DNA of 26,300 nucleotides from a virus: positions 1 to 26,300 of the IMG/VR virus record IMGVR_UViG_3300006919_000369. One strand, written 5' to 3'. The notes below the pieces were generated by a model. The model was not told the origin of the DNA, did not search any database, and saw only the letters and a list, made by a program, of their open reading frames with translations. Both the position numbers and the translations under genes were made by a program. This document shows, piece by piece, positions 13,475-26,300 of the stretch (its first letter is position 1; each line of letters opens with the position of its first letter).

Positions 13475-13783
13475 TCATGCCTTGGGTTTTTTTGTAGTCT
13501 TTTTCTTTGCGTATTTTTTACCTACTACATTCTTTATCATAGAGCTGTCGCCATTTCTAGGAAAAGAACTGTTTTTTCCAAAGTCTCTAATTCTTAGATT
13601 AGATGTTGTGTTAGAGCCACCTTTGCTTAAAGGTTGTTTGTGGTCTACTGCTTTACCATCACCTTTTTTTACTTTACCTAATCTTTCCATCATGCGTCTA
13701 GCTTTATTTCTAGCCACTCGTTTTTTTATTTGATCAGGCTTACTTTTATATTCTCTGTTTTCTTTTTGATAATCTCTAGCCAT
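13475..13783 (-). CDS. HNH-type endonuclease-like protein
   Basis: The 102-residue basic protein carries an HNH-like core, AVDHKQPLSKGGSNTTSNLR, with Asp47-His48 and Asn62 in the expected places. The final motif residue is unclear: the usual C-x2-C knuckles and terminal H/N are replaced by RIRDFGKNSSFPRNG, so activity is not assured. The N-terminal Lys/Arg-rich helix (KKRVARNKARRMMERL) could bind DNA and the C-terminus is a poly-Lys tail. It starts by TAATG overlap with the RecB/Cas4-like nuclease and ends the PolA unit before the terminator. Phage HNH proteins of this size act as homing, packaging or recombination nucleases. Its place inside the replication operon favours a resident accessory nuclease. 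Confidence 0.75.
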   Translation of the reverse strand: MARDYQKENREYKSKPDQIKKRVARNKARRMMERLGKVKKGDGKAVDHKQPLSKGGSNTTSNLRIRDFGKNSSFPRNGDSSMIKNVVGKKYAKKKTTKKPKA

Positions 13784-16286: not shown

Positions 16287-16443
16287 CTATTCCTTTCTGT
16301 TTTCCTTTCTTGCAAAAACCATGAGCAGTGTAAAAATCTAAACCACACCACCATTTATTCTTGTCTTTTATATGTGCTCTATCACCACACACATTACAAA
16401 CCTGTTTTGTATTATCTTCTTTTATTATAATACTCCCAGTCAT
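16264..16443 (-). CDS. Small zinc-ribbon protein upstream of PolA
   Basis: From the ATG at 16443 the product has 59 residues with CNVCGDRAHIKDKNKWWCGLD and a later Cys (C-x2-C-x13-C-x11-C), a probable zinc ribbon, then an acidic tail. An earlier in-frame ATG at 16494 would add 17 residues and overlap the neighbouring zinc-finger gene by 83 nt, so I prefer the shorter form, although its ribosome binding site is weak. It overlaps PolA by 23 nt. The function is unknown; nucleic-acid or protein binding is likely. Confidence 0.6.
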   Translation of the reverse strand: MTGSIIIKEDNTKQVCNVCGDRAHIKDKNKWWCGLDFYTAHGFCKKGKQKGIDEESNND

Positions 16444-16606
16444 CTGCACATTCTTTGTTACACCAGCGTCTGTCTTTTGGTATAAAATCACCACAGTTTA
16501 AACATTGTCCTGTTCCTTCAATAGAAGTTTCTTCGTTAGCATATTTACGTCTAAGCATCTCTTCTATTTCTAATCGTTCTTGTGTTCTATCTATGTCGTC
16601 TGACAT
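16412..16606 (-). CDS. Small treble-clef zinc-finger protein
   Basis: The 64-residue product has a helical N-terminus (ERLEIEEMLRRKYANEE) and a zinc finger, CLNCGDFIPKDRRWCNKECADD (C-x2-C-x10-C-x3-C), close to the DksA/TraR and DUF2116 types. Phage proteins of this kind bind nucleic acid or RNA polymerase; which applies here is unknown. AAGGGG lies 8-9 nt upstream of the ATG. It is the first gene after one copy of the 30-bp GCACAAATTAAGA dyad, so it heads the PolA unit. Confidence 0.7.
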   Translation of the reverse strand: MSDDIDRTQERLEIEEMLRRKYANEETSIEGTGQCLNCGDFIPKDRRWCNKECADDWEYYNKRR

Positions 16607-16621
16607 CGGTCATACCCCTTG

Positions 16622-16651
16622 GCACAAATTAAGATTTTTCTTATTTTGTGC
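16622..16651 (-). promoter_or_regulatory. Leader dyad copy 4 (before the PolA unit)
   Basis: Left arm GCACAAATTAAGA (16622-16634), 4-nt spacer TTTT, right arm TCTTATTTTGTGC (16639-16651); one mismatch in 13 pairs. It lies 15 nt upstream of the ATG of the zinc-finger gene and overlaps the last codons of the DUF3310 gene. No convincing promoter is seen just upstream of it. Confidence 0.75.
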
Positions 16652-16877
16652 TCTTTTTATTTCTTATAATTAGTCTTAGTTTTTGAAGATAATAGTCACA
16701 TTTATCTAAATCTTCTATTCCGTTCTTCCTTGAGAATCTCCAAATGTATTTAATTACATTAGCTACGCATACAGCTACAATTCCTACTAAGCCCATCGTT
16801 GCTGAATCAATAGCATCAATACATTCTACTTTACCTTGGGTATAATGAGAAGGTTTATTTACATTATCATTTTTCAT
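16641..16877 (-). CDS. DUF3310 family protein
   Basis: The 78-residue product matches DUF3310: NKPSHYTQGKVECIDAID, a middle hydrophobic stretch, then NVIKYIWRFSRKNGIEDLDKCDYYLQKL. The HY-x2-G-x-E/K-ID and N-V-I-K-Y-x-W-R motifs are diagnostic. The family is very common in phages, often beside nucleotide-metabolism or replication genes, and its biochemical role is not established. The start overlaps the VRR-NUC gene by 11 nt, which suggests coupling. The 3' end runs into the leader dyad of the next unit. Confidence 0.88.
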   Translation of the reverse strand: MKNDNVNKPSHYTQGKVECIDAIDSATMGLVGIVAVCVANVIKYIWRFSRKNGIEDLDKCDYYLQKLRLIIRNKKSTK

Positions 16878-17178
16878 TTATGGTTTGCTTTCCTGTTAAC
16901 ATCATTTCTAAAATGTCAACATTGTGTTCGTTGATTATATATGCTTTACCTTTAGCTTCTTCAATAAGGTTTAGATTTTTTATTTGTAATTTGGTTGGTG
17001 TATTTTTATTGGCTTTGCATTCAATACCTATAAACTTGCCTTTGTAACAGGCAACTATATCAGGCACACCTGACTGCATGTAGCCACTAGCGACAGGGAA
17101 AAAATAGTATGCCCCAATCTTTTTCAAGACTAGGACACACTTATCTTTAACCCACTTTTCAGTGATTTTTTTAGACAT
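16867..17178 (-). CDS. VRR-NUC domain nuclease
   Basis: The 103-residue protein is a minimal PD-(D/E)XK nuclease: GVPDIVACYKGKFIGIECKA places D40, E53 and K55 exactly as in the VRR-NUC family, and Q65 follows in TKLQIKN. Stand-alone phage VRR-NUC proteins probably resolve branched DNA or Holliday-type junctions in replication or packaging, as in siphophage replication modules with SNF2 and PolA. The start codon sits at the base of a small hairpin (17177-17195) formed with the end of the gene upstream, which could make its translation depend on that gene. Confidence 0.9.
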   Translation of the reverse strand: MSKKITEKWVKDKCVLVLKKIGAYYFFPVASGYMQSGVPDIVACYKGKFIGIECKANKNTPTKLQIKNLNLIEEAKGKAYIINEHNVDILEMMLTGKQTINEK

Positions 17179-17195
17179 GTTATCTAAGATAACAT
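17177..17195 (-). promoter_or_regulatory. Hairpin over the VRR-NUC start codon
   Basis: The transcript carries AUGUUAUC, a 3-nt loop and GAUAACAU, a perfect 8-bp stem. The stem includes the stop codon of the 97-aa gene and the first bases of the VRR-NUC AUG. Ribosomes finishing the upstream gene would open it, a usual arrangement for translational coupling. Confidence 0.45.
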
Positions 17196-17477
17196 ATTTT
17201 TTTGGTCTTGTATATCTTTATCGACAACTAAATAGCTTATAAGTTTTGGTGAGTTAGAAAACTTTCGTATCGCATCTTTTTGTTTAAGAATAATAAGTTT
17301 CATATTTAAATAATCAATATCTTTATCGTTCTCTATGATGAGATAAAAATCTTTCTCACGCATACCAACATCTTTAACCATTATGCTATCGTCTACAAGT
17401 TTGAGAAGAGCAATCTTTCTCCTGTGTTGTTCAGGTATGTCTGGATTGTCTTCGTCTTTTGAAAGATAAACTTTCAT
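17184..17477 (-). CDS. Hypothetical protein, 97 aa
   Basis: I do not recognise this protein. The product opens MKVYLSKDEDNPDIPEQHRR, is strongly charged, and alternates short strands (FYLIIENDKD, MKLIILKQKD, LISYLVVDKD) with helices, suggesting a small alpha/beta fold. It has no cysteines or membrane segments. It overlaps the DUF3150-like gene by ATGA, which ties it to the MoxR/VWA unit, and lies 5 nt before VRR-NUC. Confidence 0.65.
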   Translation of the reverse strand: MKVYLSKDEDNPDIPEQHRRKIALLKLVDDSIMVKDVGMREKDFYLIIENDKDIDYLNMKLIILKQKDAIRKFSNSPKLISYLVVDKDIQDQKNMLS

Positions 17478-18319
17478 ATAAGCTCCATAAGTTCTGACAC
17501 TTTGCTTGCTACATCTTTACGCAAAGCATCACTTTGTCTTAGATCCTCTGCATCAACACCGACTATAATTTTCTCTAGTCTTTGTCTAGCTGTTTCTAAC
17601 TTAGGATCTTTTGTGATATTCAAACTTGATAGCATGCCTGTTAGTTCTAAAGCATTAGTAACAAGAGTGTCTCTGAATATCTTCTTGTCTTCACCAGATA
17701 ATCTTTCGACCATGTGGTTAACAGTATCATGCAGTCTAGTCCAAGCTGACTTCATAGCAAACTCTACTCTGTCGTTGTATGCTTTCTCATACTGTTCTTT
17801 AAGATCCTGTCGCATTTGATTGTTAATGTTATCAAAGTGATTGACTTCAGGAACAGGTAGGAAAGTATAGTTAATCTTAAACTTTCTTTGTAGTTCGTCT
17901 GCTATTGGATACTCAGATCTATCAAACAACTGACCTAGCTTGTAAGCCATAGCATCAACAATGTTTGGATAATTACCTATAAACTTGTTGACACGTTCTT
18001 TGAATAGTTCTTCATGCTCGTCCATTTGTTTCTTGTAGTCAAAAAACTGTGTCATAGGTAATAGTCGTATACCACCACTCGACGACCACGGCAAAGTTTG
18101 TCGCATGTGCCAGTCTCGTATTTCACTAGCATGCTTTTGTATCTTAGCCAAAGCATCTGAACCTGCAAGCAAATGCTTGTTGTAGTTACCTGCTTTAGTT
18201 GTCGTGTTTTTGTTTACATCTATTTCTTTAGACACACTTTTGTCTAGCTTTCTTGCTGACCAAACAGATATGTTTAGTTCAACAAGAACATTACTTGATG
18301 CAATATTAATATCACTCAT
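17474..18319 (-). CDS. DUF3150-like protein of the MoxR/VWA cluster
   Basis: The 281-residue, mostly helical protein opens with a strand-like VLVELNISVWSARKLDK, which resembles the start of DUF3150 proteins. It then shows GGIRLLPMTQFFDYKKQM and a long helical section (EELFKERVNKFIGNYPN) followed by a conserved-looking AWTRLHDTVNHMVERL. DUF3150 genes are often found beside MoxR-type ATPases and CobT/VWA proteins in phages and plasmids, which is the context here. The family role is unknown; a partner or substrate adaptor of the ATPase is a reasonable inference. A strong ribosome binding site (AGGAGGATAAG) directly precedes the ATG and overlaps the end of the 228-aa gene. Assignment is by resemblance, not by alignment. 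Confidence 0.65.
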   Translation of the reverse strand: MSDINIASSNVLVELNISVWSARKLDKSVSKEIDVNKNTTTKAGNYNKHLLAGSDALAKIQKHASEIRDWHMRQTLPWSSSGGIRLLPMTQFFDYKKQMDEHEELFKERVNKFIGNYPNIVDAMAYKLGQLFDRSEYPIADELQRKFKINYTFLPVPEVNHFDNINNQMRQDLKEQYEKAYNDRVEFAMKSAWTRLHDTVNHMVERLSGEDKKIFRDTLVTNALELTGMLSSLNITKDPKLETARQRLEKIIVGVDAEDLRQSDALRKDVASKVSELMELI

Positions 18320-18320
18320 C

Positions 18321-19007
18321 TTATCCTCCTAGTCTGTAATATTCGTTACTGTCAATGGGTGCACTATTTATATAATTAATTTCTAGGTTTGTTATGTTAC
18401 CCTCGATTATGTCGTTTGCTACTTTTATTGCCATGTTATCTTCAGGAATTGGTATCCTAAATTTATTAATTTGTTTCTTAAGTTTTTGTAGTAGAGCATA
18501 GCTACCTTCTGAAAAACCTGCTTTGTAATCTTTACTACTACGTCTATGTTCATAACTAAGCCCTGCTCCGTATAAACTAAACTTGTATTTACCTACAGTT
18601 TCATTAGGTTCACGAGTTTTAATTCCTTCAAGTTCTCTAAGGTTTTCTAATATCTCGTCTCTTATATGCTGAGATGATACATTATGATCCTCATTTAATA
18701 ATAAACACATAGTTAAAAACTCTTCTATGGGTTTCCATACTTCACTGCCTGCTTTGTAGTTAACTACTTTAGCATCATAATCATTATTTAATATTATGTG
18801 TGGGTGTGTGGGCCCAACATGTTGTCTCCATAAGTCTGAAGCAATATGTTTAGTAATAGCATTACTATAAGTGTTTTGTGCACCTACAGCTTCAGTTATA
18901 TATTTCTTAATGTTTTTCTTTTGACCAACACCAAGATTGTTTAAATCTAGGTGCCCAACCAATCGTGAAAAATATTGATTGTGTGCGTCAGGTATGTTGA
19001 TACTCAT
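18321..19007 (-). CDS. Hypothetical protein of the MoxR/VWA cluster, 228 aa
   Basis: I do not recognise this protein. It opens MSINIPDAHNQYFSRLVGHL and is mostly helical. There is a middle segment with Glu/Asn-rich helices (SSQHIRDEILENLRELEG) and an aromatic stretch, GKYKFSLYGAGLSYEHRR. There is no signal peptide, membrane segment or metal motif. It is linked by TAATG to the VWA protein upstream and sits 1 nt before the DUF3150-like gene, so it is part of the same translational chain and probably works with those proteins. Confidence 0.75.
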   Translation of the reverse strand: MSINIPDAHNQYFSRLVGHLDLNNLGVGQKKNIKKYITEAVGAQNTYSNAITKHIASDLWRQHVGPTHPHIILNNDYDAKVVNYKAGSEVWKPIEEFLTMCLLLNEDHNVSSQHIRDEILENLRELEGIKTREPNETVGKYKFSLYGAGLSYEHRRSSKDYKAGFSEGSYALLQKLKKQINKFRIPIPEDNMAIKVANDIIEGNITNLEINYINSAPIDSNEYYRLGG

Positions 19008-20155
19008 TAGTCTTCTCCTTCATAGTTAATTGTTTTTCCATGAGGTGATACTTCTTTAGATGTAACTACCCATAAGGTAGGATACTTCCAAGTGCCACCC
19101 CAATCTTCTTCTACATAGCCGTCGGTGAATATAAGCACGGCTTCAGGTTTGATTTTGTGTTTGTCTAAATACTTATTCACACATCTAACCTCTGTGCCAC
19201 CCCCACCCATTGGTTTTGTAGATTTAAGCATGTTGCCATACTCATGCTGTTTATACTGCTCTGCACCTGCTACATCAGAATCCCAATACAACAAGTGAAC
19301 AGTTTTTGGTATTACATCTTCACATATACTGACTACTTCAGAAAGAAACGCTTGTATGTCTTTCTGTCTGATAGATCCTGATGTATCAATACCAATTACC
19401 AAGTCACCAACAGATTCACCTATCATTGATGGCATGTATATATCTTGTGATACAAACCTACGATGTGGGCGTCTCCATGATGACTTATCTTTTGTGCTAC
19501 ATATGTTGTTCATGAACTGTCTAAGTTCATGACGCCAGTTAACTTTTGGTTTAAGCAAATCGTTGATAGCTCTAGACTGATTACCACCCATCTTACCTCG
19601 TAGTATCTCGCCTTGTCGCAGAGCCGTATCAATTTGTTTTTTAACTTTGTTAACTTCGTCATCGTCCAACTTTTCAGCACCGTCCCAATCATGAACATCA
19701 AGTTGATACCCTTGGTTCATGTTAGGATTTTCTTGAATCAAAGTGTCAAACACTTGCCTTGTAGTCCAACCATCAAAACGTTTGTCATACAATGCACCAC
19801 TAGGCATTACAGTTATAGCACTGTTAGGATCAGCATTTACAATAGTTTGGTTAACTATGTAGTCAGCCGCCATGTTTGCTATCATAGGATTTTGTTTAAA
19901 TAATCCTTTCCATAAGTGCATGTGTTGAAACGCTTTGTGTATAGCTTCGTGCAACACGATGAAATTTAGTTCTTTACTCTGTAGTCTGTCTATAAACTTT
20001 GGGTTGTATACAACATCTCTGCCGTTAGTTGCAGCTGTTGGTATATCGTCCTGAAAACTAACATCGCCTATAGACAAAACACCAGAGAACAAACAAAACT
20101 CTTTGCTACGCATAATAGCAATATGAGATTTTGTGACTTTATCTTGTGGTGTCAT
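19007..20155 (-). CDS. Metallopeptidase-like plus VWA (DUF2201-type) protein
   Basis: The 382-residue protein has two parts. The N-terminal domain carries a zincin motif, VLHEAIHKAF (HEAIH 69-73), and Asp98 in NMAADYIVN as likely third ligand, matching the peptidase-like domain found in front of DUF2201. The C-terminal VWA-like domain has an intact MIDAS site: DTSGS (257-261), GGTE (319-322) and TDG (344-346), so it should bind Mg2+ and a partner. Proteins of this build pair with MoxR-type AAA+ ATPases, as in RavA-ViaA, CbbQ-CbbO and CobS-CobT, where the pair remodels or activates a target. Here the ATPase gene lies just upstream, with a 53-aa gene between. No secretion signal, so it acts in the cytoplasm. 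The target is unknown. Confidence 0.88.
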   Translation of the reverse strand: MTPQDKVTKSHIAIMRSKEFCLFSGVLSIGDVSFQDDIPTAATNGRDVVYNPKFIDRLQSKELNFIVLHEAIHKAFQHMHLWKGLFKQNPMIANMAADYIVNQTIVNADPNSAITVMPSGALYDKRFDGWTTRQVFDTLIQENPNMNQGYQLDVHDWDGAEKLDDDEVNKVKKQIDTALRQGEILRGKMGGNQSRAINDLLKPKVNWRHELRQFMNNICSTKDKSSWRRPHRRFVSQDIYMPSMIGESVGDLVIGIDTSGSIRQKDIQAFLSEVVSICEDVIPKTVHLLYWDSDVAGAEQYKQHEYGNMLKSTKPMGGGGTEVRCVNKYLDKHKIKPEAVLIFTDGYVEEDWGGTWKYPTLWVVTSKEVSPHGKTINYEGED

Positions 20156-20313
20156 TCTGTCTCCTCTATCTCAAAGTCTGAACCTGCTACATTTTTGTGT
20201 TGTTGATAAAGTTCTAAAGCGTATTCACAAGCTTTTAGTTTGCTACTGAACTTGCCTACAATGTTACCTACACCTTTAGTGCTGTATTCCACAACTAAAT
20301 ATTCTTTATTCAT
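20152..20313 (-). CDS. Small protein between MoxR ATPase and VWA genes, 53 aa
   Basis: This gene was read directly from the sequence. The product begins MNKEYLVVEYSTKGVGNIVG and ends GSDFEIEETE. AAGGAGATAACA gives a strong ribosome binding site that overlaps the stop of the MoxR gene, and the stop overlaps the VWA start by ATGA. This exact fit is good evidence for a real gene. It looks like a small beta-beta-alpha domain with an acidic end; no family recognised. Confidence 0.75.
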   Translation of the reverse strand: MNKEYLVVEYSTKGVGNIVGKFSSKLKACEYALELYQQHKNVAGSDFEIEETE

Positions 20314-20323
20314 TGTTATCTCC

Positions 20324-21370
20324 TTAGAAAAATTGTTTATGATCCATTACCCAGTCCGTAAACTTTTTGTTAGTTGCAGCGAGTGCTTGTTTAGAACCAT
20401 TCATTATGTTGAATGCAAACAATGCTCTCATTTCCATAGGTAGTCTTTGCATATACACAATCCATGGTTCAAGGTTTTCTTTGGTTATGTTCATTAGTTC
20501 ACGCATAACAAGAATTACTCTTGCTGATGGATCGTTAGGAACGATAGCTTTATCAGGTTCTTTGTATATAGCTTCTCGTGTTGGTAGTTCATCTGCAAGT
20601 GAGAAGTATGCAGACATATCTCTCGCAGCTGATTCACCAATGGTGCCTGATAACGCTGTCATTGTTGTATTCTCACCAAGCTTGTGTCTAGCTTTAACAA
20701 CGAATGATGCTTTGTGTAAAGATCTTGGTGTGACAAACGCTTGTTGTTCTTTCTGAGGATTAAATATATACAAGTTCTCTTTCTGAGATGGATCAGTATA
20801 ACTAGCCAGACAGTGTGGAAACTGTTTAACCCATGCTATAACTTCAGGAGACAAGTCATTATCAATTGCCCATGCAATCCATTCATCATCTGTTGGATTA
20901 CGAAGATTAACAGTAGTGATTCTGTTTTTAGCATGGGCTTTCAAACTGTCGCCAACACCGTCTGTTATCAAATTACCTGTGGAATACACAATTGAATCAG
21001 GGTGAAAAGCAACAGAACCAAGCCGTCTTTCCAACATAACAGGTAACAACATATTCTTTACAGGTTCACTAGCTTTTGTAATCTCGTCGAGCATTACGAT
21101 AACAGGTTTACCATGATGTAATTGAAACCTTTCGTTTGGATAGAATGATGTAGTCTTTGTATTATGATCCATGGCAGGCATAGCTAAGTCACCCAAGTCT
21201 AAGTCTGCACAGTCAATATATACAGGTATATGTGTGGAAAACTTGTCTGCCAATGTATTTAGTATTGACGATTTACCAATCCCAGGTTGTCCCTGAACAT
21301 GCACTGTTGTCGTCGTGCCTACGCTTTCAATCAGATTAGTTACTTCTGATAGGTTTAGTGATAATTGCAT
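20324..21370 (-). CDS. MoxR-type AAA+ ATPase
   Basis: The 348-residue ATPase has Walker A GQPGIGKS (27-34), Walker B VMLDE (92-96), sensor 1 STGN (130-133) and a likely arginine finger near AKNRIT (147-152), the order seen in MoxR/CobS-type AAA+ proteins. It would form a ring that uses ATP to remodel a target together with the VWA protein two genes downstream. AAAGGAACT precedes the ATG. A leader dyad copy lies 23 nt upstream of the start, in the 53-nt gap after the 318-aa gene. Marine phages are known to carry CobS-like members of this group, usually without a proven role. Nothing here points to cobalamin synthesis itself. Confidence 0.9.
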   Translation of the reverse strand: MQLSLNLSEVTNLIESVGTTTTVHVQGQPGIGKSSILNTLADKFSTHIPVYIDCADLDLGDLAMPAMDHNTKTTSFYPNERFQLHHGKPVIVMLDEITKASEPVKNMLLPVMLERRLGSVAFHPDSIVYSTGNLITDGVGDSLKAHAKNRITTVNLRNPTDDEWIAWAIDNDLSPEVIAWVKQFPHCLASYTDPSQKENLYIFNPQKEQQAFVTPRSLHKASFVVKARHKLGENTTMTALSGTIGESAARDMSAYFSLADELPTREAIYKEPDKAIVPNDPSARVILVMRELMNITKENLEPWIVYMQRLPMEMRALFAFNIMNGSKQALAATNKKFTDWVMDHKQFF

Positions 21371-21393
21371 TTTTAGTTCCTTTCAAATTAAAT

Positions 21394-21423
21394 GCACAAA
21401 TTAAGATATTTCTTAATTTGTAG
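21394..21423 (-). promoter_or_regulatory. Leader dyad copy 3 (before the MoxR gene)
   Basis: Left arm GCACAAATTAAGA (21394-21406), spacer TATT, right arm TCTTAATTTGT then AG (21411-21423); the inner 11 bp pair perfectly. It fills the short gap between the 318-aa gene and the MoxR start, with no clear promoter nearby, so the MoxR genes may be read through from the promoter at 22.5 kb. Confidence 0.75.
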
Positions 21424-22380
21424 TTAAATAGCCAGTTGTCTTTGTGGTTCATCAACAAGTTCTAATATATCTTTATAGTGTTGTTGTTTAATACTACGCT
21501 CTAACGAATTTAAGTATTGATCAGGAGTTGATCTTTTAGCTCTAGGTCCCCAAAAGAATTCATAGCTTGAATCTTTAAGTTTATCGCTGTCTGGTTCAGG
21601 CATCCTATTATAATTCTCACGCATGAGAGCGCATATTAAATGCCTGTATTCTTCATTATCAGACTTACACGCTGAAAGCCATAGATCGTTAGCATCTTCT
21701 TTTGACCAAGAGTCTGGGTATATATTCCACATAGCTGAAATATATTCTTTTATTTTTTGAAGTTTACCTTGACGCAACGCTTTCATTTTTTTACGATTTA
21801 CTTTATATTTTTTAGGAACTGTAAACTGTTCTTCATTTAAAGGTGTGCCATCATACGAAAATTTGTAAAACTTTTTATCAACTAGATCTCGACTATGACC
21901 GTTTACAAGTTCAGCACGAGTTGAAAATGATTCGTCCTGTAAATCTTTTTCGTATACAAACCCACTAGGTATAAACTCTTTCCATGGTATTGCCCAGAAA
22001 CGTATACCTGTTAAACTTGTTTGTATAGTGCTACCACCAGTGGAACGAGGTGGAGTTACTTCATAGTGGTTTGGATAAAAATTAACAGTAGCATTATGCG
22101 ATACAAATTTACTCCAATCACTAGTTCTATAAGCACTGTTAGGGAAATAATTAGTTATACAATAGAAGAATTCGTTAACTTCGTTATCATATAGTTTAGT
22201 TATATACCCATTAGAAAAATGATGTGTTACTTTGTATCTGCTAGACTGTTGTGTAGAGTAACTACCTTCGTCTGAGTAACCTGATTCTTCATACTCAGGA
22301 CTAAAACTCCATACATGTTCTAGCTGTTTGTAGGTGGGTGTTTCTATTGAATCCCACACTAAACCGATTTCAATAGACAT
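21424..22380 (-). CDS. Hypothetical protein heading the MoxR/VWA unit, 318 aa
   Basis: I do not recognise this protein. The N-terminal half is rich in aromatics, Ser and Thr and looks beta-rich (YKVTHHFSNGYITKLYDNEV, then NATVNFYPNHYEVTPPR). The second half is helical and basic (KVNRKKMKALRQGKLQKIKE) with a Trp-rich stretch, MWNIYPDSWSKEDANDLWL. There is no signal peptide or membrane segment. It has its own perfect sigma70-like promoter and leader dyad and a good ribosome binding site (AAAGGAGA), so it is probably well expressed and is the first gene of the unit that continues into the MoxR, VWA and DUF3150-like genes. A target or substrate-recognition protein of that system is one possibility, with no direct evidence. 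Confidence 0.75.
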   Translation of the reverse strand: MSIEIGLVWDSIETPTYKQLEHVWSFSPEYEESGYSDEGSYSTQQSSRYKVTHHFSNGYITKLYDNEVNEFFYCITNYFPNSAYRTSDWSKFVSHNATVNFYPNHYEVTPPRSTGGSTIQTSLTGIRFWAIPWKEFIPSGFVYEKDLQDESFSTRAELVNGHSRDLVDKKFYKFSYDGTPLNEEQFTVPKKYKVNRKKMKALRQGKLQKIKEYISAMWNIYPDSWSKEDANDLWLSACKSDNEEYRHLICALMRENYNRMPEPDSDKLKDSSYEFFWGPRAKRSTPDQYLNSLERSIKQQHYKDILELVDEPQRQLAI

Positions 22381-22408
22381 AATTGTCTCCTTTCATAGAT
22401 GAAAAAAA

Positions 22409-22446
22409 CTAGGCACAAATTAAGAATAATCTTAAATCGTGCCTAG
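22409..22446 (-). promoter_or_regulatory. Leader dyad copy 2 (before the 318-aa gene), with extended stem
   Basis: Left arm GCACAAATTAAGA (22413-22425 core), spacer ATAA, right arm TCTTAAATCGTGC; a further CTAG/CTAG pair extends it to 17-bp arms (22409-22425 and 22430-22446). It lies about 40 nt downstream of the -10 box at 22488 and 28 nt upstream of the ATG, so it falls in the 5' leader of the transcript. Confidence 0.8.
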
Positions 22447-22487
22447 AAACTTAATGAAACATGAGGTAATACTACCCCCATTCTGAT

Positions 22488-22516
22488 ATTATACATCAGT
22501 AGGTTTACAATGTCAA
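22488..22516 (-). promoter_or_regulatory. Consensus sigma70 promoter for the 318-aa/MoxR unit
   Basis: On the minus strand TTGACA (22511-22516), a 17-bp spacer and TATAAT (22488-22493) match the bacterial consensus exactly. It lies in the gap just after the 80-aa membrane protein gene, with a predicted start near 22481. Confidence 0.88.
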
Positions 22517-22531
22517 GCTGTTGTGTCATTA

Positions 22532-22774
22532 TTAATCCTTCACTGATTCGTTTGCGCACTCTAAATTTGCATCTGATTTAATATAGACTGTGCTTGTTGG
22601 GTCTGCTTGTATATAAGTAATACCTCGCTTACATAGAAACCTAACAGGTTCACCATTTATATAATCGTCAATAGCATAGAATATTGTGTTGCTATACCAC
22701 CCAACACCAAAGCCTATTACTAACAAGGCTACTATCTCCATTATGTGTTTTGCTTTGTATATAGTTATCTTCAT
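22532..22774 (-). CDS. Small membrane protein with one N-terminal TM segment
   Basis: The 80-residue product has a hydrophobic segment at about 12-33 (IMEIVALLVIGFGVGWY) after a short basic N-terminus. The remaining 45 residues have two Cys and would lie in the periplasm if the usual positive-inside rule holds. It could be an uncleaved anchor or a signal peptide. It starts by ATGA overlap with the zinc-ribbon gene and ends 15 nt before the consensus promoter of the next unit. Small single-pass proteins are common among early phage genes; no specific role is visible. Confidence 0.65.
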   Translation of the reverse strand: MKITIYKAKHIMEIVALLVIGFGVGWYSNTIFYAIDDYINGEPVRFLCKRGITYIQADPTSTVYIKSDANLECANESVKD

Positions 22775-22971
22775 TTGATTAGTCCCCCCTTGTTGTTGAT
22801 ACCTTTGAGATCTTCTGCGTTGGTGAACAACATGTAATTACTTTTGTGCATAGGTGCAACGCAGTGCTTTTTAGTTTTAGCTTCTTCGTCACCACATGAT
22901 AAACATGTTTTGTATCCTAACTTGTGTCTACCTGTAGCCACGAGTTCACCACATTTTATACAGTTATACAT
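22771..22971 (-). CDS. Small zinc-ribbon protein, 66 aa
   Basis: The product begins MYNCIKCGELVATGRHKLGY and continues KTCLSCGDEE, giving two CxxC knuckles (C-x2-C-x15-C-x2-C), a zinc ribbon. I chose the ATG at 22971 because AAAGGAAAC lies directly upstream; the longer in-frame start at 22995 would overlap the gene before it. The rest is basic then neutral (MHKSNYMLFTNAEDLKG). DNA or RNA polymerase binding is a typical role for such proteins but is not shown. Confidence 0.65.
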   Translation of the reverse strand: MYNCIKCGELVATGRHKLGYKTCLSCGDEEAKTKKHCVAPMHKSNYMLFTNAEDLKGINNKGGLIK

Positions 22972-22982
22972 ATGTTTCCTTT

Positions 22983-23177
22983 CTAAAATAAACATTCGCC
23001 CACTGCATCGTAGGCTTTTTGATAGTCCGATTTCTTTTTTGGCGCTTCAAGTTTGATAATCTTAGTGCCTGTCTTACCTTCACAAAACCACTTAGCTTCA
23101 CGCAAAGACTGAAACCTCATCATACTCTCTCCATCTATTAAGACTTCGTGAGTAAATACTCTATCGCATGTGGACAC
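22983..23177 (-). CDS. Hypothetical protein, 64 aa, GTG start
   Basis: The start codon is GTG at 23177 with AAGGGAG 6 nt upstream, inside the end of the 142-aa gene (17-nt overlap). The product contains VLIDGESMMRFQSLREAKWF, then a basic helix KKKSDYQKAYDAV. It looks like a small beta-alpha domain. I recognise no family. Confidence 0.6.
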   Translation of the reverse strand: MSTCDRVFTHEVLIDGESMMRFQSLREAKWFCEGKTGTKIIKLEAPKKKSDYQKAYDAVGECLF

Positions 23178-23589
23178 GGATTACTCCCTTGATCTTAAAC
23201 CGTTTAAGTATATCCCCGTAGAGCAACTCTTGCAATAAATTGACATCTCTCTTTTTATAGAACAGAGTATCTGTAATACTATTGCGATAAGACTCCAAGT
23301 ATTGATCTCGTGCCATGGTAGGCAACAGGTGTATCTTACGATTCTTGGTTAGCTTGACACCTATAAATATCTCATGTGCTCTCATAGGTTTATCACCTAA
23401 TACTTTTAACACACGCTTAACCATTTCATCATATGTTAGAACAACACCATCGTCATCTTCATACTTAGTTTTCTTAGTGAAGTAACTAGATGTAGTTTCC
23501 TCTTGCTCTTTGAGATAGTTCTTAGGTTTGATATCAGTTTTTAGTATGCGTTTTTTAGACACCATTCTTTCTCTGTGGCTATATACCAT
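23161..23589 (-). CDS. Hypothetical protein, 142 aa, possible winged-helix
   Basis: I do not recognise this protein. It is basic, with a disordered N-terminal 45 residues, then MVKRVLKVLGDKPMRAHEIF, a helix followed by a turn and helix that resembles the start of a winged-helix domain, and an end rich in strands (GDILKRFKIKGVIRVHMR). A DNA-binding role is only suggested by this pattern. The first ATG at 23589 has AGGAGT 5 nt upstream, overlapping the stop of the 86-aa gene. Confidence 0.6.
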   Translation of the reverse strand: MVYSHRERMVSKKRILKTDIKPKNYLKEQEETTSSYFTKKTKYEDDDGVVLTYDEMVKRVLKVLGDKPMRAHEIFIGVKLTKNRKIHLLPTMARDQYLESYRNSITDTLFYKKRDVNLLQELLYGDILKRFKIKGVIRVHMR

Positions 23590-23592
23590 AAC

Positions 23593-23853
23593 TTACTCCT
23601 CACAGTTACCATTGATACAGAATCTATTTTGGCTCAACAACTCGTCCTCTATTTCTTCTAGTGCTTTTTGTTCAGCCTCGTCACACTTTTGTTTCCATTC
23701 CGTTAACTTCGTTAGCAGTTCTTCTGCTAGTTCTTTCTGTGCTAACAACATAAAGTCAGACGGGCAGTCGCATGAGTCAGAAGTTAGTTCTGTCCTATCT
23801 ACACACTCACGCAACTCTACTGTCAACTCTTGTAGTAATTTTTCAGCGTTCAT
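23593..23853 (-). CDS. Hypothetical acidic coiled-coil protein, 86 aa
   Basis: The product is Glu/Leu-rich with a long helix (AEELLTKLTEWKQKCDEAEQ and onward) and several Cys (RECVDRTE, CDCPSD, FCINGNCEE). It has no membrane segment. AAAGGTG precedes the ATG. It contains one copy of GTTAACTTCGT (23702-23712), here in a different codon frame (T-K-L-T) from the other coding copies. No family recognised. Confidence 0.6.
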   Translation of the reverse strand: MNAEKLLQELTVELRECVDRTELTSDSCDCPSDFMLLAQKELAEELLTKLTEWKQKCDEAEQKALEEIEDELLSQNRFCINGNCEE

Positions 23854-23865
23854 ATATACACCTTT

Positions 23866-24213
23866 CTATGTATAAGTATCTTCGATAACATCATACCCAC
23901 GCGACATCCAACTCTCGCGTTTGATATTCCTAAACCAATCAGATACAGTTGGTATCCGACCACCACAGTCTTCTTTAACATGTTGCTCACCAATGTAACG
24001 AACAGGAACTTGCCTGCCGTCAGAGTTGGTGATAGTTATGCCGAACACTCGTTCACATTCAAATATACCTTGACTGTGATGACGCAGTGCTCTGTGTCTG
24101 AAGTCTGCAAATGTTTCTTTGGTAGCATCAAACCAATCATGTATTGCCTGATAGTCTTCTACTTTGCCACCCCATTTCTTTACACTTGTTAGTGCGTGTT
24201 GATGTGTATGCAT
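23866..24213 (-). CDS. DUF6915-like protein
   Basis: The 115-residue product shows the motif series I associate with DUF6915: SVKKWGGKVEDYQAIHDWFD, then DFRHRALRHHSQGIFECE, GITITNSDGR, VPVRYIGEQHVKEDCGG and IPTVSDWF. The His-rich core (RHRALRHH) and HVKED could bind a metal. The family occurs in bacteria, plasmids and phages with no known function. It starts by TAATG overlap with the DUF6878-like gene, so the two are translationally linked. The family name is from memory of its conserved motifs. Confidence 0.75.
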   Translation of the reverse strand: MHTHQHALTSVKKWGGKVEDYQAIHDWFDATKETFADFRHRALRHHSQGIFECERVFGITITNSDGRQVPVRYIGEQHVKEDCGGRIPTVSDWFRNIKRESWMSRGYDVIEDTYT

Positions 24214-24701
24214 TATAGATTCTCCAAACTTTCAAACATTTTGTCTATGATTTGTCGTTTATCTGTTTTCTTGTGTTTGCCTTCGTCAGCAAACATAGTA
24301 AAACTTTCGTTGCCATAGCCATATTGATCTTCGTCAATGTAGCGTATCTTGATGTCCATGTTGACTGATGGTTTGCCGTCTTCATCAAGCGTTATGGTAA
24401 TCGTGCCGTAGCCACCATCGTTGTTATACCAATCGTGACCTGATTCATCGAGCATTTGATAGCCGAGATCTTCTGCACACTTGTATATAGTTACTTGCTC
24501 TTCACCTCGATCTTCATCGTAAACCCATGTGATACTATCTTCAGGTATCTTTATTGGTTCATCACTAGAGTCTAGGAAAGTTATGCCATCAATCTGACCA
24601 TCATCTCCTGAACCTTCAAACTCAATGGTAAAGCTATGCACATTGAGTAGCTTTAAATGTGCGAATAGTTTTTCTACATGTTGCTTTGTAAAATCTGCCA
24701 T
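24213..24701 (-). CDS. DUF6878-like acidic protein
   Basis: The 162-residue, very acidic protein shows SFTIEFEGSGDDGQIDGITF near the N-terminus and HDWYNNDGGYGTITITLDED in the middle, a layout resembling DUF6878 (GSGDSGQ and W-x-NDGGYG signatures). The C-terminus is a charged helix (TDKRQIIDKMFESLENL). No catalytic motif is seen. AAAGGA lies upstream of the ATG at 24701 and the gene is coupled to the DUF6915-like gene. The acidic surface could mimic DNA, as in anti-restriction proteins, but this is speculation from composition alone. Confidence 0.65.
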   Translation of the reverse strand: MADFTKQHVEKLFAHLKLLNVHSFTIEFEGSGDDGQIDGITFLDSSDEPIKIPEDSITWVYDEDRGEEQVTIYKCAEDLGYQMLDESGHDWYNNDGGYGTITITLDEDGKPSVNMDIKIRYIDEDQYGYGNESFTMFADEGKHKKTDKRQIIDKMFESLENL

Positions 24702-24722
24702 GATAATTCCTTTCAGTTATTG

Positions 24723-24914
24723 TTAGTATGTTATTTTGTTGACTTCATACATGAGCCATAGCATGAGCACGATGCCACCACCTGCTAAGAATGTCATGAT
24801 AAGCGTAAGTATTCTGTCACAGTTTGATTGTTTATTTTCAATAGGAAAATCAGGTATTGAATTGTGATACTCGCGTAACTTTTTTTCTAAGTTTTCTATT
24901 TGTTGTTTGTTCAT
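24723..24914 (-). CDS. Small C-terminally anchored membrane protein, 63 aa
   Basis: From the ATG at 24914 (AGGAATT upstream) the product is a charged helix, MNKQQIENLEKKLREYHNS, then a single hydrophobic segment near the C-terminus (IMTFLAGGGIVLMLWLMYEV). A longer in-frame start at 24941 would lie inside the leader dyad and is unlikely. It is the first gene after the leader dyad and consensus promoter at 25.0 kb. Spanin- or holin-like roles are possible by size, but there is no lysis gene nearby. Confidence 0.6.
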   Translation of the reverse strand: MNKQQIENLEKKLREYHNSIPDFPIENKQSNCDRILTLIMTFLAGGGIVLMLWLMYEVNKITY

Positions 24915-24935
24915 AATAATTCCTTTACATAAAGT

Positions 24936-24965
24936 GCACAAATTAAGAATAATCTTAAAATGTGC
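24936..24965 (-). promoter_or_regulatory. Leader dyad copy 1 (before the accessory-gene unit)
   Basis: Left arm GCACAAATTAAGA (24936-24948), spacer ATAA, right arm TCTTAAAATGTGC (24953-24965); two mismatches in 13 pairs. It lies 46 nt downstream of the -10 box of the consensus promoter and 21 nt upstream of the ATG at 24914. Confidence 0.78.
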
Positions 24966-25010: not shown

Positions 25011-25039
25011 ATTATACACTAAGTCATTGACTTTGTCAA
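25011..25039 (-). promoter_or_regulatory. Consensus sigma70 promoter for the accessory-gene unit
   Basis: On the minus strand TTGACA (25034-25039), a 17-bp spacer and TATAAT (25011-25016) match the consensus exactly. The -35 box covers the stop codon of the second HTH gene. The predicted start near 25004 gives a leader of about 90 nt that contains the dyad. Confidence 0.88.
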
Positions 25040-25302
25040 TCTGTCCAACCACTCCGAATGTCTTCAATATCTACAACATTGTTAACTTCGTTAACTTCTT
25101 TTTCTCTCTGTTTTTCTATATATACTAGTTCGATAGTGAATAGTTTCCACATACCAGCTGGCATTGGGTATTGTCCTTTCTCCCATCGTGACCATGTGTT
25201 GTTGGTAACACAGCACAAATCTGCACAGTCTGCCTGTGATAGTTTGGCACGAAGTCTAGTATTTTTAATCTCTGAAGTGTTAGGAACATGGTATTTATTC
25301 AT
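25036..25302 (-). CDS. XRE-type HTH regulator B
   Basis: The 88-residue product has an HTH, RLRAKLSQADCADLCCVTNN, followed by TWSRWEKGQYPMPAGMWKLF, the W-E-x-G and M-P-x-x-W-x-LF signature of small phage XRE/Cro-like regulators. An acidic tail with EVNEVNN and DIEDIRSGW is added. It is clearly homologous to the next gene (same spacing of LR-x3-LS-x2-D/A, R/W-YE/WEKG, MP-x3-W-LF), so the pair is a tandem duplication. It overlaps gene A by ATGA and is co-transcribed with it. Its stop codon lies in the -35 box of the following promoter. Confidence 0.85.
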   Translation of the reverse strand: MNKYHVPNTSEIKNTRLRAKLSQADCADLCCVTNNTWSRWEKGQYPMPAGMWKLFTIELVYIEKQREKEVNEVNNVVDIEDIRSGWTD

Positions 25303-25517
25303 GCCATTTGCCCTTGTTTTGATTTAATTACTCTGCACTTTAGCTCAAATAATTCCCAATATGCTAGTGGCATTTTAGTGTTACCTCGCTCATATCTTTG
25401 GAATGTTCTTGATGAAATATGGAGTAGATTACCTGCATCTTCAGTTGACAATCTCAAGGATTTTCTGAGATCTTTTATCTGTTTTGGTGTTGGTGAATTG
25501 AGTATTTTTCCTTCCAT
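25299..25517 (-). CDS. XRE-type HTH regulator A
   Basis: The 72-residue product has an HTH in PKQIKDLRKSLRLSTEDAGN and LLHISSRTFQRYERGNTKMP, then AYWELFELK, matching the small XRE/Cro-like phage regulators with the MPxAxWELF end. It is the first leftward gene, with AGGAGAG upstream of the ATG and its own promoter about 30-55 nt further up. An operator-like dyad (ACGACAA-G-TTGTCGT) sits between the -35 and -10 boxes of that promoter, which fits autorepression. Whether A or B binds the dyads cannot be told from sequence. Confidence 0.87.
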   Translation of the reverse strand: MEGKILNSPTPKQIKDLRKSLRLSTEDAGNLLHISSRTFQRYERGNTKMPLAYWELFELKCRVIKSKQGQMA

Positions 25518-25542
25518 TTGCTCTCCTTTTGTCTGGATTTTT

Positions 25543-25572
25543 AGTATAGCAAAAACGACAAGTTGTCGTCAA
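25543..25572 (-). promoter_or_regulatory. Leftward promoter of the HTH pair with operator O1
   Basis: On the minus strand TTGACG (25567-25572), an 18-bp spacer and TATACT (25543-25548). The 15-bp dyad ACGACAAGTTGTCGT (25555-25569; 7-bp arms, 1-nt centre) lies in the spacer and touches the -35 box, so a bound repressor would block polymerase. Confidence 0.7.
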
Positions 25573-25652
25573 ATTTATTTTCAGTGGGTGTTTGAAATTG
25601 CTAAATATATATGAGTATATATTTATATGAGGATTTTTTATGGGTAAATTCA

Positions 25653-25721
25653 ACACAGCGTATACACACAGCGTATACACACAGCGTAGAAAGACTACAC
25701 ACAGCGTATACACACAGCGTA
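25653..25721 (+). repeat. 13-bp iteron array, five copies of ACACAGCGTA
   Basis: ACACAGCGTA starts at 25653, 25666, 25679, 25699 and 25712. The full unit is ACACAGCGTATAC with 13-bp spacing, except one 20-bp step where AGAAAGACT is inserted, so the array is a 3+2 arrangement. The last copy lies one base from operator O2. The repeats are exact over ten bases. Confidence 0.92.
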
Positions 25722-25722
25722 G

Positions 25723-25737
25723 AAGACATATTGTCGT
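25723..25737. promoter_or_regulatory. Operator-like dyad O2
   Basis: AAGACATATTGTCGT matches O1 (ACGACAAGTTGTCGT) at 12 of 15 positions and keeps the GACA/TGTC dyad. It directly follows the iteron array. Confidence 0.55.
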
Positions 25738-25760
25738 GTTTGCTTATTTTTTAATCATTT

Positions 25761-25775
25761 GCGACATATTGTCGG
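25761..25775. promoter_or_regulatory. Operator-like dyad O3
   Basis: GCGACATATTGTCGG keeps CGACA/TGTCG arms around a central TAT and is identical to O2 over the core GACATATTGTCG. It lies 38 bp (centre to centre) from O2. Confidence 0.55.
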
Positions 25776-25804
25776 TTTTGGTGGAGTTAGGGTGTAAAAT
25801 TACT

Positions 25805-25965
25805 AAGTTGTTGATTTATATACAATATTACGGTTTTTAACTTTGTTAACTTTGTGGTATTCTTACGGCTTAAGTTATTGATTTATAAAGAATATTACGG
25901 GTTTGAACTTGGTTAACTTTGTCAATTTACACCGTAAGTCTTTGATTTATATATAATATTACATT
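25805..25965 (+). repeat. Three AT-rich direct repeats with a period of 64-67 bp
   Basis: Units start at 25805, 25872 and 25936. Each opens AAGT, then TTGATTTATA, a short variable step and AATATTAC. The first two are followed by AACTTTG/AACTTGG-GTTAACTTTGT and all end near a TTAC-type sequence. A shortened fourth version (TATAATATTACAC) appears at about 26122. The strongly A/T-rich core could serve as a DNA-unwinding element. Confidence 0.75.
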
Positions 25966-26153
25966 CTTACAGCTATTTATTGTCAATAGCACCTGCGAAA
26001 CAAGATCAACGGAGTTAAAAAAATAAAAATCTATAATAAAAACAAGCTGGATATATAAAAAACTATTGTAATAATGTAATAATGTAAATTTATAGTAAAA
26101 AATATAATAAAAACAAGTGCTTATAATATTACACCTATTCTTACACTTTTAAC

Positions 26154-26197
26154 TTAGTTAAAAAAGCGTAAATTTATAATAAACGACAATCTGTCGT
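26154..26197 (+). promoter_or_regulatory. Possible rightward promoter with operator O4
   Basis: TATAAT (26175-26180) has only a weak -35 candidate (TTAGTT, 26154-26159, 15-bp spacing). The dyad ACGACAATCTGTCGT (26183-26197), with the same arms as O1, covers the predicted start site. If real, it would drive genes lying beyond the right edge and be controlled by the same regulator as the HTH pair. Confidence 0.45.
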
Positions 26198-26238
26198 GCC
26201 CACGATCTATAGTTGAAAGTGTTATTTTGCGTTAGCTT

Positions 26239-26293
26239 CGTCGTTTACGACGGTCATAAACGGTCATAACCTAACGGTCATGACCTCGGTCAT
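26239..26293 (+). repeat. CGTCGT/ACGACG dyad followed by four CGGTCAT repeats
   Basis: The dyad CGTCGT-TT-ACGACG (26239-26252) runs into CGGTCAT at 26251, 26261, 26275 and 26287, start-to-start steps of 10, 14 and 12 bp, close to one helical turn each. Two of them form the palindrome GGTCATGACC (26276-26285). Confidence 0.8.
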
Positions 26294-26300
26294 CAAAAAA

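Follow-up and report, generated by a model that had tools for sequence, protein, structure and literature searches.

Dyads in the window

The 26,300-base IMG/VR virus record IMGVR_UViG_3300006919_000369, the whole of which is called the window here, has a region of leftward genes in which an inverted repeat of two 13-bp arms separated by 4 bp (13-N4-13; hereafter dyad) recurs just upstream of gene starts. The region encodes a MoxR-type ATPase, a metallopeptidase/VWA protein, a family A DNA polymerase (PolA), an exonuclease, an SNF2 helicase, a DUF927 protein, a Hjc-like protein and many small proteins. The gene order 318-aa - MoxR - VWA - (228-aa) - 281-aa - Hjc - PolA is common to contigs down to 44-50% MoxR identity, with gaps at contig ends or where genes are missing; in one contig (L083; G and L numbers designate the records and contigs compared) the 281-aa gene precedes VWA. 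While the MoxR, VWA, 281-aa and PolA proteins of the phages compared are 53-85% identical, identity is 23-32% for the 318-aa and 23-37% for the 228-aa protein, and by this measure both genes are fast evolving. Homologues of the 228-aa protein were found as 22 frames spread over 20 contigs; judged by MoxR, VWA or PolA identity, all of these belong to the closer clade, but not every one has a recognised dyad (exceptions are e.g. L023, L031 and L081). The features are listed in Table 1.

Table 1 Dyads, promoters and genes of the leftward region, in window coordinates
Feature	Position	Strand	Remarks
Dyad copy 1 (13-N4-13)	16622..16651	-	Intercistronic; 15 nt before 64-aa gene 16412-16606
Dyad copy 2	21394..21423	-	Between 318-aa stop codon and ribosome-binding site of MoxR gene; 23 nt to start
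Dyad copy 3	22413..22442	-	45 nt past -10 hexamer, 32 nt before 318-aa gene
Dyad copy 4	24936..24965	-	45 nt past -10 hexamer; 21 nt before 63-aa gene (ATG 24914)
Sigma-70 promoter TTGACA-17-TATAAT (12/12), 318-aa unit	22488..22516	-	-35 region TTGACATTGT
Sigma-70 promoter TTGACA-17-TATAAT (12/12), accessory-gene unit	25011..25039	-	-35 region TTGACAAAGTCAA
318-aa gene	21424..22380	-	Dyad-led; 23-32% identity between phages
MoxR-type AAA ATPase gene	20324..21370	-	Dyad-led; marker for finding relatives
228-aa gene	18321..19007	-	Hyperdiverged; considered as possible dyad binder
Pair of small XRE-type helix-turn-helix genes	25036-25302, 25299-25517	-	Own operator-like repeats upstream

The 13-mer GCACAAATTAAGA occurs exactly four times on the + strand of the window (16622, 21394, 22413 and 24936), and each copy is one arm of a dyad whose partner arm, 17 bases further on, deviates by one or two mismatches. 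When up to two mismatches to GCACAAATTAAGA are allowed there are eight matches, i.e. both arms of all four copies, against a mean of 2.31 in 100 shuffles; one of the shuffles also gave eight, so that this bare count is weak and the case for the dyads rests on the exact matches and the paired spacing. With at most one mismatch, the only matches in the record are the four copies plus the partner arm at 16639, and the pattern read backwards has none. Full dyads were found four times in the window versus a mean of 0.2 in five block shuffles, with a scan pattern derived from the same copies.

A first-pass annotation of the window had described these four dyads, and exact-match and mismatch counts bear out the identical 13-mer, the N4 spacing and the inverted partner arm. 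It had placed them 15-31 nt before leftward starts; the distances to the start codons, measured on a contig of the same phage, are 15, 23, 32 and 21 nt, and all genes concerned run leftward. Two dyads were said to stand behind exact-consensus promoters, which is indeed the case for those at 22413 and 24936; their promoters are the only 12/12 matches within 16-26.3 kb of the window. The dyad at 16622 overlaps the final 11 nt of the upstream 78-aa gene (16641-16877), and the flanks of copy 3 lengthen its symmetry by CTAG/CTAG. Contrary to what had been claimed, pairing is not kept throughout the varying arm: mid-arm positions oppose A.A, U.U and, once, G.U, and at 21394 the two outer pairs are a C.C mismatch and a U.G.

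The contig used for these measurements, L009, is from the window's phage or nearly so, since the four copies have the same spacing and MoxR and the other shared open reading frames are 100% identical. It extends beyond the right end of the window and contains, about 700 nt past that end, a fifth dyad (L009:239) behind an 11/12 promoter and ahead of a gene for a 203-aa protein. In this copy the canonical arm is on the opposite side, and a further flipped copy is present in G001 (position 13591). The earlier view of an invariant 3' arm beside the ribosome-binding site (RBS) therefore fails genome-wide; flipped copies exist, orientation is thus free, and that one arm of the asymmetric copies looks invariant in the window is a local accident. 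A search of viral contigs with a pattern anchored on the 13-mer gave nine stretches, of which L009 (four sites) and L006 (one site) are the window's phage. The other seven, with one site each, were dropped because the GCAC outer box is absent from the flanks shown.

Dyads in related phages

Searching with MoxR gave 45 viral loci. We compared 39 moxR leaders, 19 of which are from the closer clade (MoxR 61-82% identical, or the window's phage), and a 13-N4-13 dyad stands just before moxR in 14 of these 19, several of them being the same phage; the leader of L021 is cut. At this position, which is that of dyad copy 2, the relatives have dyads of other sequence. The dyad sequence is lineage-specific and recurs elsewhere in the same contig; the versions found are GCACAAATTCACA, TCACAAACCCTCG, TACAAATTCYCG, CTCAAATTCACG, CCCAAATTCCTA, TAACAAAGTGGCA, CGACATTCCTACC, GGAA-N4-GCACG and GAACATTATCCTA. 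There are six copies in G001 (61.9 kb), seven in G002 (66.3 kb), nine in G003 (65.8 kb), eight in G006, six each in G007, L022 and L019 and five in L009, as well as seven in G004, but none of the latter precedes moxR. The summed shuffle mean for these scans, window included, is 0.4; the scan patterns were derived from copies already seen, and the numbers thus measure specificity, not discovery. All matches at scan threshold in G001-G003 are confined to the early region, which in G003 spans the ends of the record. The set of genes led by a dyad varies between relatives, and the proposal that the dyads mark functional unit boundaries is therefore upheld only in part.

A blind search for repeated 13-N4-13 dyads found at least three copies in 14 of 104 sequences, several of one phage, versus none of 104 shuffled sequences, two of which reached two copies. 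A looser search was run on 88 of the 104, mostly more distant relatives, and families were found in 9 of the 88 versus 0 of 88 shuffled. These families are short palindromes, e.g. GACCTAACAWTGTTAGGTC, TTTCTACAGTGTAGAAA, TTGCCGTAGCRCTACGGCAA and TTTATACAC-N4-GTGTATAAA, and by eye the palindromes of distant relatives lie mostly directly before RBSs and once before a terminator in L047 and L053. When the moxR, VWA and 281-aa leaders were read directly, several of the L034-L058 contigs proved to have TAAACAn(n)TGTTTA, and L055 to have TGTAACAATGTTACA; no palindrome is seen in many of the leaders of this group.

Placement relative to genes and promoters

Placement was determined for 69 copies in 12 contigs, with 2,200 random same-strand positions of the early regions, those of G003 excepted, as control. 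For 53 of the 69, the next 60 nt contain a Shine-Dalgarno-like core and a start that opens a frame of at least 40 codons, 10-37 nt from the dyad (median 23); this is seen at 18% of the random positions. A sigma-70 promoter with at least 10 of 12 consensus positions lies at most 110 nt upstream of 24 of the 69 copies (random 3.3%), and the spacing from the -10 hexamer to the dyad is 34-45 nt in 23 of these and 58 nt in one. Many copies without a linked promoter lie between the genes of operons. No start was detected for 16 of the 69; several of these are in control regions and at least some others are failures of the start rule (L019:1846 and G007:4821, for instance, show an RBS and an ATG). 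Three of the 16 (G002:54847, G004:28838 and G006:6023) stand at the stop codon of the gene of the 203-aa family, directly before an intrinsic terminator.

Two further repeats were seen around these promoters. The sequence T[T/G]GAC[A/T][A/T]TGT is present at the -35 position of 21 of 24 strong early promoters of the window and its relatives and often completes a small palindrome, TTGACATTGTCAA, which is possibly a second operator overlapping the -35 element. Many leaders also have an inverted repeat between the start site and the dyad (window 22463-22478, L022 3937-3972, G003 64688-64725 and others), in several cases with a GGGAAA-type loop and, less often, a T run (GAGCGTGGGAAACTACGCTC TATTTTTT). 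In appearance they are closer to RNA 5' hairpins or attenuators than the dyads are.

Symmetry of the arms

If pairing in RNA were selected, G.U should be favoured over A.C, whereas both are equally likely if the half-sites are read in DNA. In the ten box pairs of the 69 copies we counted 570 Watson-Crick pairs, 30 G.U, 31 A.C and 59 others. For 68 unique copies (duplicates removed, three copies from L077/L079 added) the numbers are 564, 28, 31 and 57, which gives a G.U share of 0.47 (95% interval 0.34-0.61, optimistic since the copies are related). Because A.C is as frequent as G.U, RNA pairing is not what selection keeps; half-site recognition is. Within the nine contigs that have at least four copies, 106 departures from the majority half-site are in one arm or unequal versus 10 that are symmetric. 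Across 12 lineages, each represented by one hand-picked copy, the two arms match at 0.90 of the box pairs versus 0.49 when arms were re-paired between lineages (maximum of 2,000 re-pairings 0.69). Positions 5-8 of the half-site are often A.A or T.T. At gathering score, Rfam 15 has no match in the window.

From the sequence alone, either an asymmetric operator or an RNA leader hairpin had been considered in the first-pass annotation. The DNA operator is the branch that gains support, but the RNA branch does not, with G.U not above A.C. A comparison of the arms in relatives, which was expected to decide between the two, speaks for DNA: the half-sites differ between lineages and follow one consensus per genome. 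Absence of the element from close relatives, which would have spoken against it, is found for its letters but mostly not for the element, as a dyad of other letters is usually there.

Candidate binding proteins

Among the proteins that might bind the dyads, the best candidate, albeit a weak one, is the hyperdiverged product of about 203 aa of the first early gene, just outside the window. This gene is divergent from oppositely running genes and is flanked by dyads on both sides in G002, G004 and G006. The L009 version of the protein shares 55% identity with its G001 counterpart and 19-25% with seven further ones. Dyad distance and protein distance correlate with rho = 0.54 for the 203-aa family (7 genomes, 21 non-independent pairs), compared with 0.47 for Hjc, 0.40 for the 318-aa, 0.31 for the 228-aa (0.48 on the same seven genomes) and 0.20 for PolA, and with values around zero for MoxR (-0.07), VWA (-0.01) and the 281-aa protein (-0.10). 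The correlation for the 203-aa family is only suggestive, with Hjc, an unlikely binder, nearly as high.

AlphaFold predicts an all-helical 203-aa protein (pLDDT 82.9, pTM 0.56); the model of the 228-aa protein has a pLDDT of 78.2 and a pTM of 0.72. VIA-align of the 203-aa model reached a best Z of 6.1, which is uninformative for a helical bundle, and Pfam and PHROGs gave nothing above the curated cut-off or convincing for seven proteins of the family. The 318-aa protein is unlikely to be a universal binder, since L047, L053, L055 and L083 have palindromes and no 318-aa homologue was detected in the stretch examined.

Lifestyle and known relatives

Tyrosine integrase (PF00589), ParA (PF13614) and serine recombinase (PF00239) were not found in any of the four relatives searched (G001-G004), records that may be incomplete and of which G004 is a fragment; control genomes were matched in 14/14, 14/14 and 10/14 cases, respectively. 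We lean towards a lytic lifestyle for this phage group, or at any rate one without integration; the sites might then act in early shut-off or in the exclusion of relatives.

Megablast of window positions 1-25000 against phage records gave no match. The best 40 of 480 MoxR matches in phage records are at most 26.6% identical, and the best 25 of 686 PolA matches reach at most 33.7%, with Rhizobium phages of the RHph_TM group. One of these, RHph_TM3_14A (L138), has a six-copy palindrome, GTTACCT-N4-AGGTAAC, in its first 50 kb, with some copies before starts. It was not counted because three copies are inside annotated genes (one of these at the very end, ahead of the next start) and a further copy overlaps an RBS. 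Of KPP25 and Rollin, 44 and 41 kb respectively were examined, and neither stretch has a family of at least four copies. A prophage search in a collection with one genome per species (84,980 species), made with two patterns and hence weak as to absence, found three bacterial loci with at best 47% MoxR identity, none of which has a palindrome repeated three times. In one of them, on a 619-kb scaffold of Spiribacter salilacus (L141, 9932-12203), the MoxR relative with 47% identity has as its neighbour a 423-aa frame, possibly the partner metallopeptidase; judged by eye, the surrounding genes do not look phage-like and no prophage is seen. This MoxR relative is possibly domesticated or ancestral.

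Discussion

The dyads are probably dispersed DNA operators of a phage-encoded and likely dimeric DNA-binding protein, comparable to stoperators and with a specificity that changes fast. From the sequence, placement, copy number and lineage-specific symmetry of the dyads and the missing RNA-pairing signature, all obtained directly, we infer the protein, its dimeric state, the roadblock and its timing, along with the promoter start sites and the transcription of the sites. In each half-site about 4 bp form an outer box and about 5 bp an inner one, separated by an A/T-rich stretch that has no fixed complementarity, and two such half-sites face each other across 4 bp. The copies lie in presumably transcribed DNA: some follow the presumed start of a strong sigma-70 early promoter by about 28-39 bp, others are in the gaps between early genes just before the RBS, and those of three relatives are at a stop codon just before an intrinsic terminator. 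The bound protein could then obstruct RNA polymerase on its way through a leader or an intercistronic gap, and such a roadblock would turn down or insulate the early region. The specificity of the protein would drift fast, each lineage re-setting the sites to its own sequence while the kind of place is kept.

Several observations weigh against this interpretation. A clear dyad before moxR was not seen in L023 and L025-27 (the latter grouped with G004); a repeated family was present in only 9 of the 88 wider contigs. In the blind search, the G002 family had a weak copy at 33462 inside the late-end DUF927 replication gene, which was not counted, and one counted copy was missed. Foldseek against the Protein Data Bank gave no match at E <= 0.001 for the 203-aa and 228-aa models, and no integrase, ParA or resolvase family in G001-G004 suggests lysogeny and hence a repressor. 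Finally, most copies crowd the RBS, which fits translational control too, the window copies fold as RNA hairpins at -10.7 to -12.4 kcal/mol (other folds: G004 -10.9, G002 -10.2, L047 -9.0 kcal/mol), and in G001 three of the six copies show a symmetric change of the outermost pair (from GCAC/GTGC to ACAC/GTGT and CCAC/GTGG), as an RNA stem would. These last points, and the location of most copies in a 5' leader or between genes, are what one would expect of a hairpin in the RNA leader that serves antitermination, processing or translational control and is read beside the RBS by a protein or an RNase. As the principal explanation we reject such a hairpin on the G.U and A.C counts, and the preponderance of one-arm or unequal changes, the flipped copies, the lack of an Rfam family in the window and the short palindromes of relatives, some of which are barely stable as hairpins (L047 -9.0, L043 -4.0, L055 -2.8 and L042 -0.5 kcal/mol), also argue against it; we regard it as distinctly improbable.

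An operator that controls or activates promoters, such as the site of a middle-promoter activator or a phage-specific promoter, instead of an elongation roadblock, would account for the 24 of 69 copies with narrow spacing to strong promoters and for the few in the control region of the XRE genes (L022:797, G006:6794, G007:4120, L019:180), and a putative SigA promoter has been reported within an element of the mycobacteriophage Adephagia discussed below. But at those 24 promoters the copies lie downstream and not over the promoter, 45 of the 69 have no promoter of at least 10/12 within 110 nt, the gap between dyad and RBS is often too short for a -10 element and a start site (e.g. in G004), and the three copies directly before a terminator do not fit, which makes this rather improbable. 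The small XRE pair comprises the only DNA-binding regulators recognised nearby and has 16 homologous frames in the clade. Its own control regions, however, carry a different repeat (CGACAATATGTCG in L009, GCGACAATCTGTCGC in L033, AGGACAATAGTGTC in L020 and L029), a dyad of this type also lies over the XRE promoter of the window (25554-25570), and G003, with nine dyads, gave a single HTH_31 match, in a different gene; that the XRE proteins bind the dyads is thus very unlikely. There is an even slimmer likelihood that the dyads are sites of a DNA-organising or partition protein, centromere- or nucleoid-like, in the few non-coding gaps of the early region. Dispersed, lineage-specific inverted repeats next to a large non-coding, repeat-rich region would fit, but the placement is tied to starts and promoters and the ParA-type ATPase (PF13614) was missing in all four relatives searched.

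It is tempting to extend the operator interpretation to an immunity-like system that diversifies: the 203-aa family, as a type of DNA-binding protein without recognisable relatives, would bind the dyads and shut down its own genome as well as incoming related ones, with a specificity re-set in each lineage under superinfection conflict or by satellites, and this in apparently non-integrating tailed phages. We consider this extension unlikely on present grounds.

In the literature searched, no paper was recognised as describing the dyads in this phage group. The nearest described elements are the extended start-associated sequences (ESAS) known from mycobacteriophages of cluster K. These imperfect inverted repeats closely precede the start codons of some genes, with 17-bp arms and a variable spacer of mostly 4-13 bp, usually tied to a 13-bp start-associated sequence (SAS) next to the start codon; the associated SAS sites are in the non-structural half of the genome and the consensus differs between subclusters. 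Their authors saw little support for an RNA hairpin and preferred a DNA-binding protein, and the role was called unclear in 2024 (PMC3203893, PMC11373665, PMC12699233). Our dyads are likewise imperfect inverted repeats just before the starts of non-structural genes (early region only in G001-G003), with a consensus that differs between subgroups and departures that do not support RNA pairing. Unlike ESAS, they have 13-bp arms and N4 in the clade of the window and are shorter palindromes elsewhere, the SAS GGGATAGGAGCCC has no match within two mismatches in the window, the sequence searched, the promoters lie upstream of the dyads and not inside as in Adephagia, and the sequence turnover spans at least a dozen lineages.

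The stoperators of cluster A mycobacteriophages, at which the phage immunity repressor stops elongation, are asymmetric 13-bp sites, mostly in one orientation and with up to 30 per genome (PMC6550527, PMC9283540). Common to both are multiple dispersed sites outside promoters in DNA that is, in our case presumably, transcribed, and a motif that drifts with the phage (and, for stoperators, with the repressor). The dyads differ in having half-sites on both arms and flipped copies, in their number of 6-9 per relative record scanned whole and in the lack of a detected integrase or ParA family in G001-G004; the element of the window is not an oriented stoperator. Cluster O mycobacteriophages have a 17-bp palindrome of one consensus that occurs over 30 times across the genome; roughly one copy in three is inside a gene, there is no close link to starts, and dimeric DNA-binding proteins were predicted for it (PMC4351075). 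It resembles the dyads in being dispersed, near-invariant within a genome and without meaningful orientation, in phages without integrase or parAB, whereas the dyads number 6, 7 and 9 in records of 62-66 kb, are found in the early region only and lie mostly 10-37 nt before starts. The Nostoc cyanophages A-1 and N-1 have asymmetric intergenic motifs, 43 and 21 per genome, suggested as possible stoperators (PMC4916379); these are also repeats between genes whose sequence differs between related phages, but our dyads are of the symmetric type and fewer.

Operator-repressor pairs are usually conserved, since all sites must change together with the protein. Here the syntenic early genes and usually the place of the dyad are kept, and the letters differ between the lineages compared. 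This provides a large natural data set on the joint evolution of a DNA-binding specificity and its several sites in a genome, and a route to the function of ESAS-like elements, which were described in 2011 and whose role is still called unclear. The dyads may also serve as a marker of early transcription units in uncultured phages.

Other features of the region

An apparently non-coding, repeat-rich region of about 800 bp adjoins the XRE genes (window 25520-26300, continuing at L009:912-1750) and has a repeat-rich counterpart in relatives. It contains tandem units of ACACAGCGTATAC (25653-25721) and dyads of the CGACAnnnTGTCG type (25555, 25762 and 26183) and looks like an origin or control region. 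The 78-aa protein encoded at 16641-16877 matches phage 'nucleotide kinase' PHROG families; we take it to be of the DUF3310/SaV type. Positions 168-5930 of the window encode a rightward protein of 1920 aa with an LPD38 domain near its C terminus, likely a large virion or injected protein.

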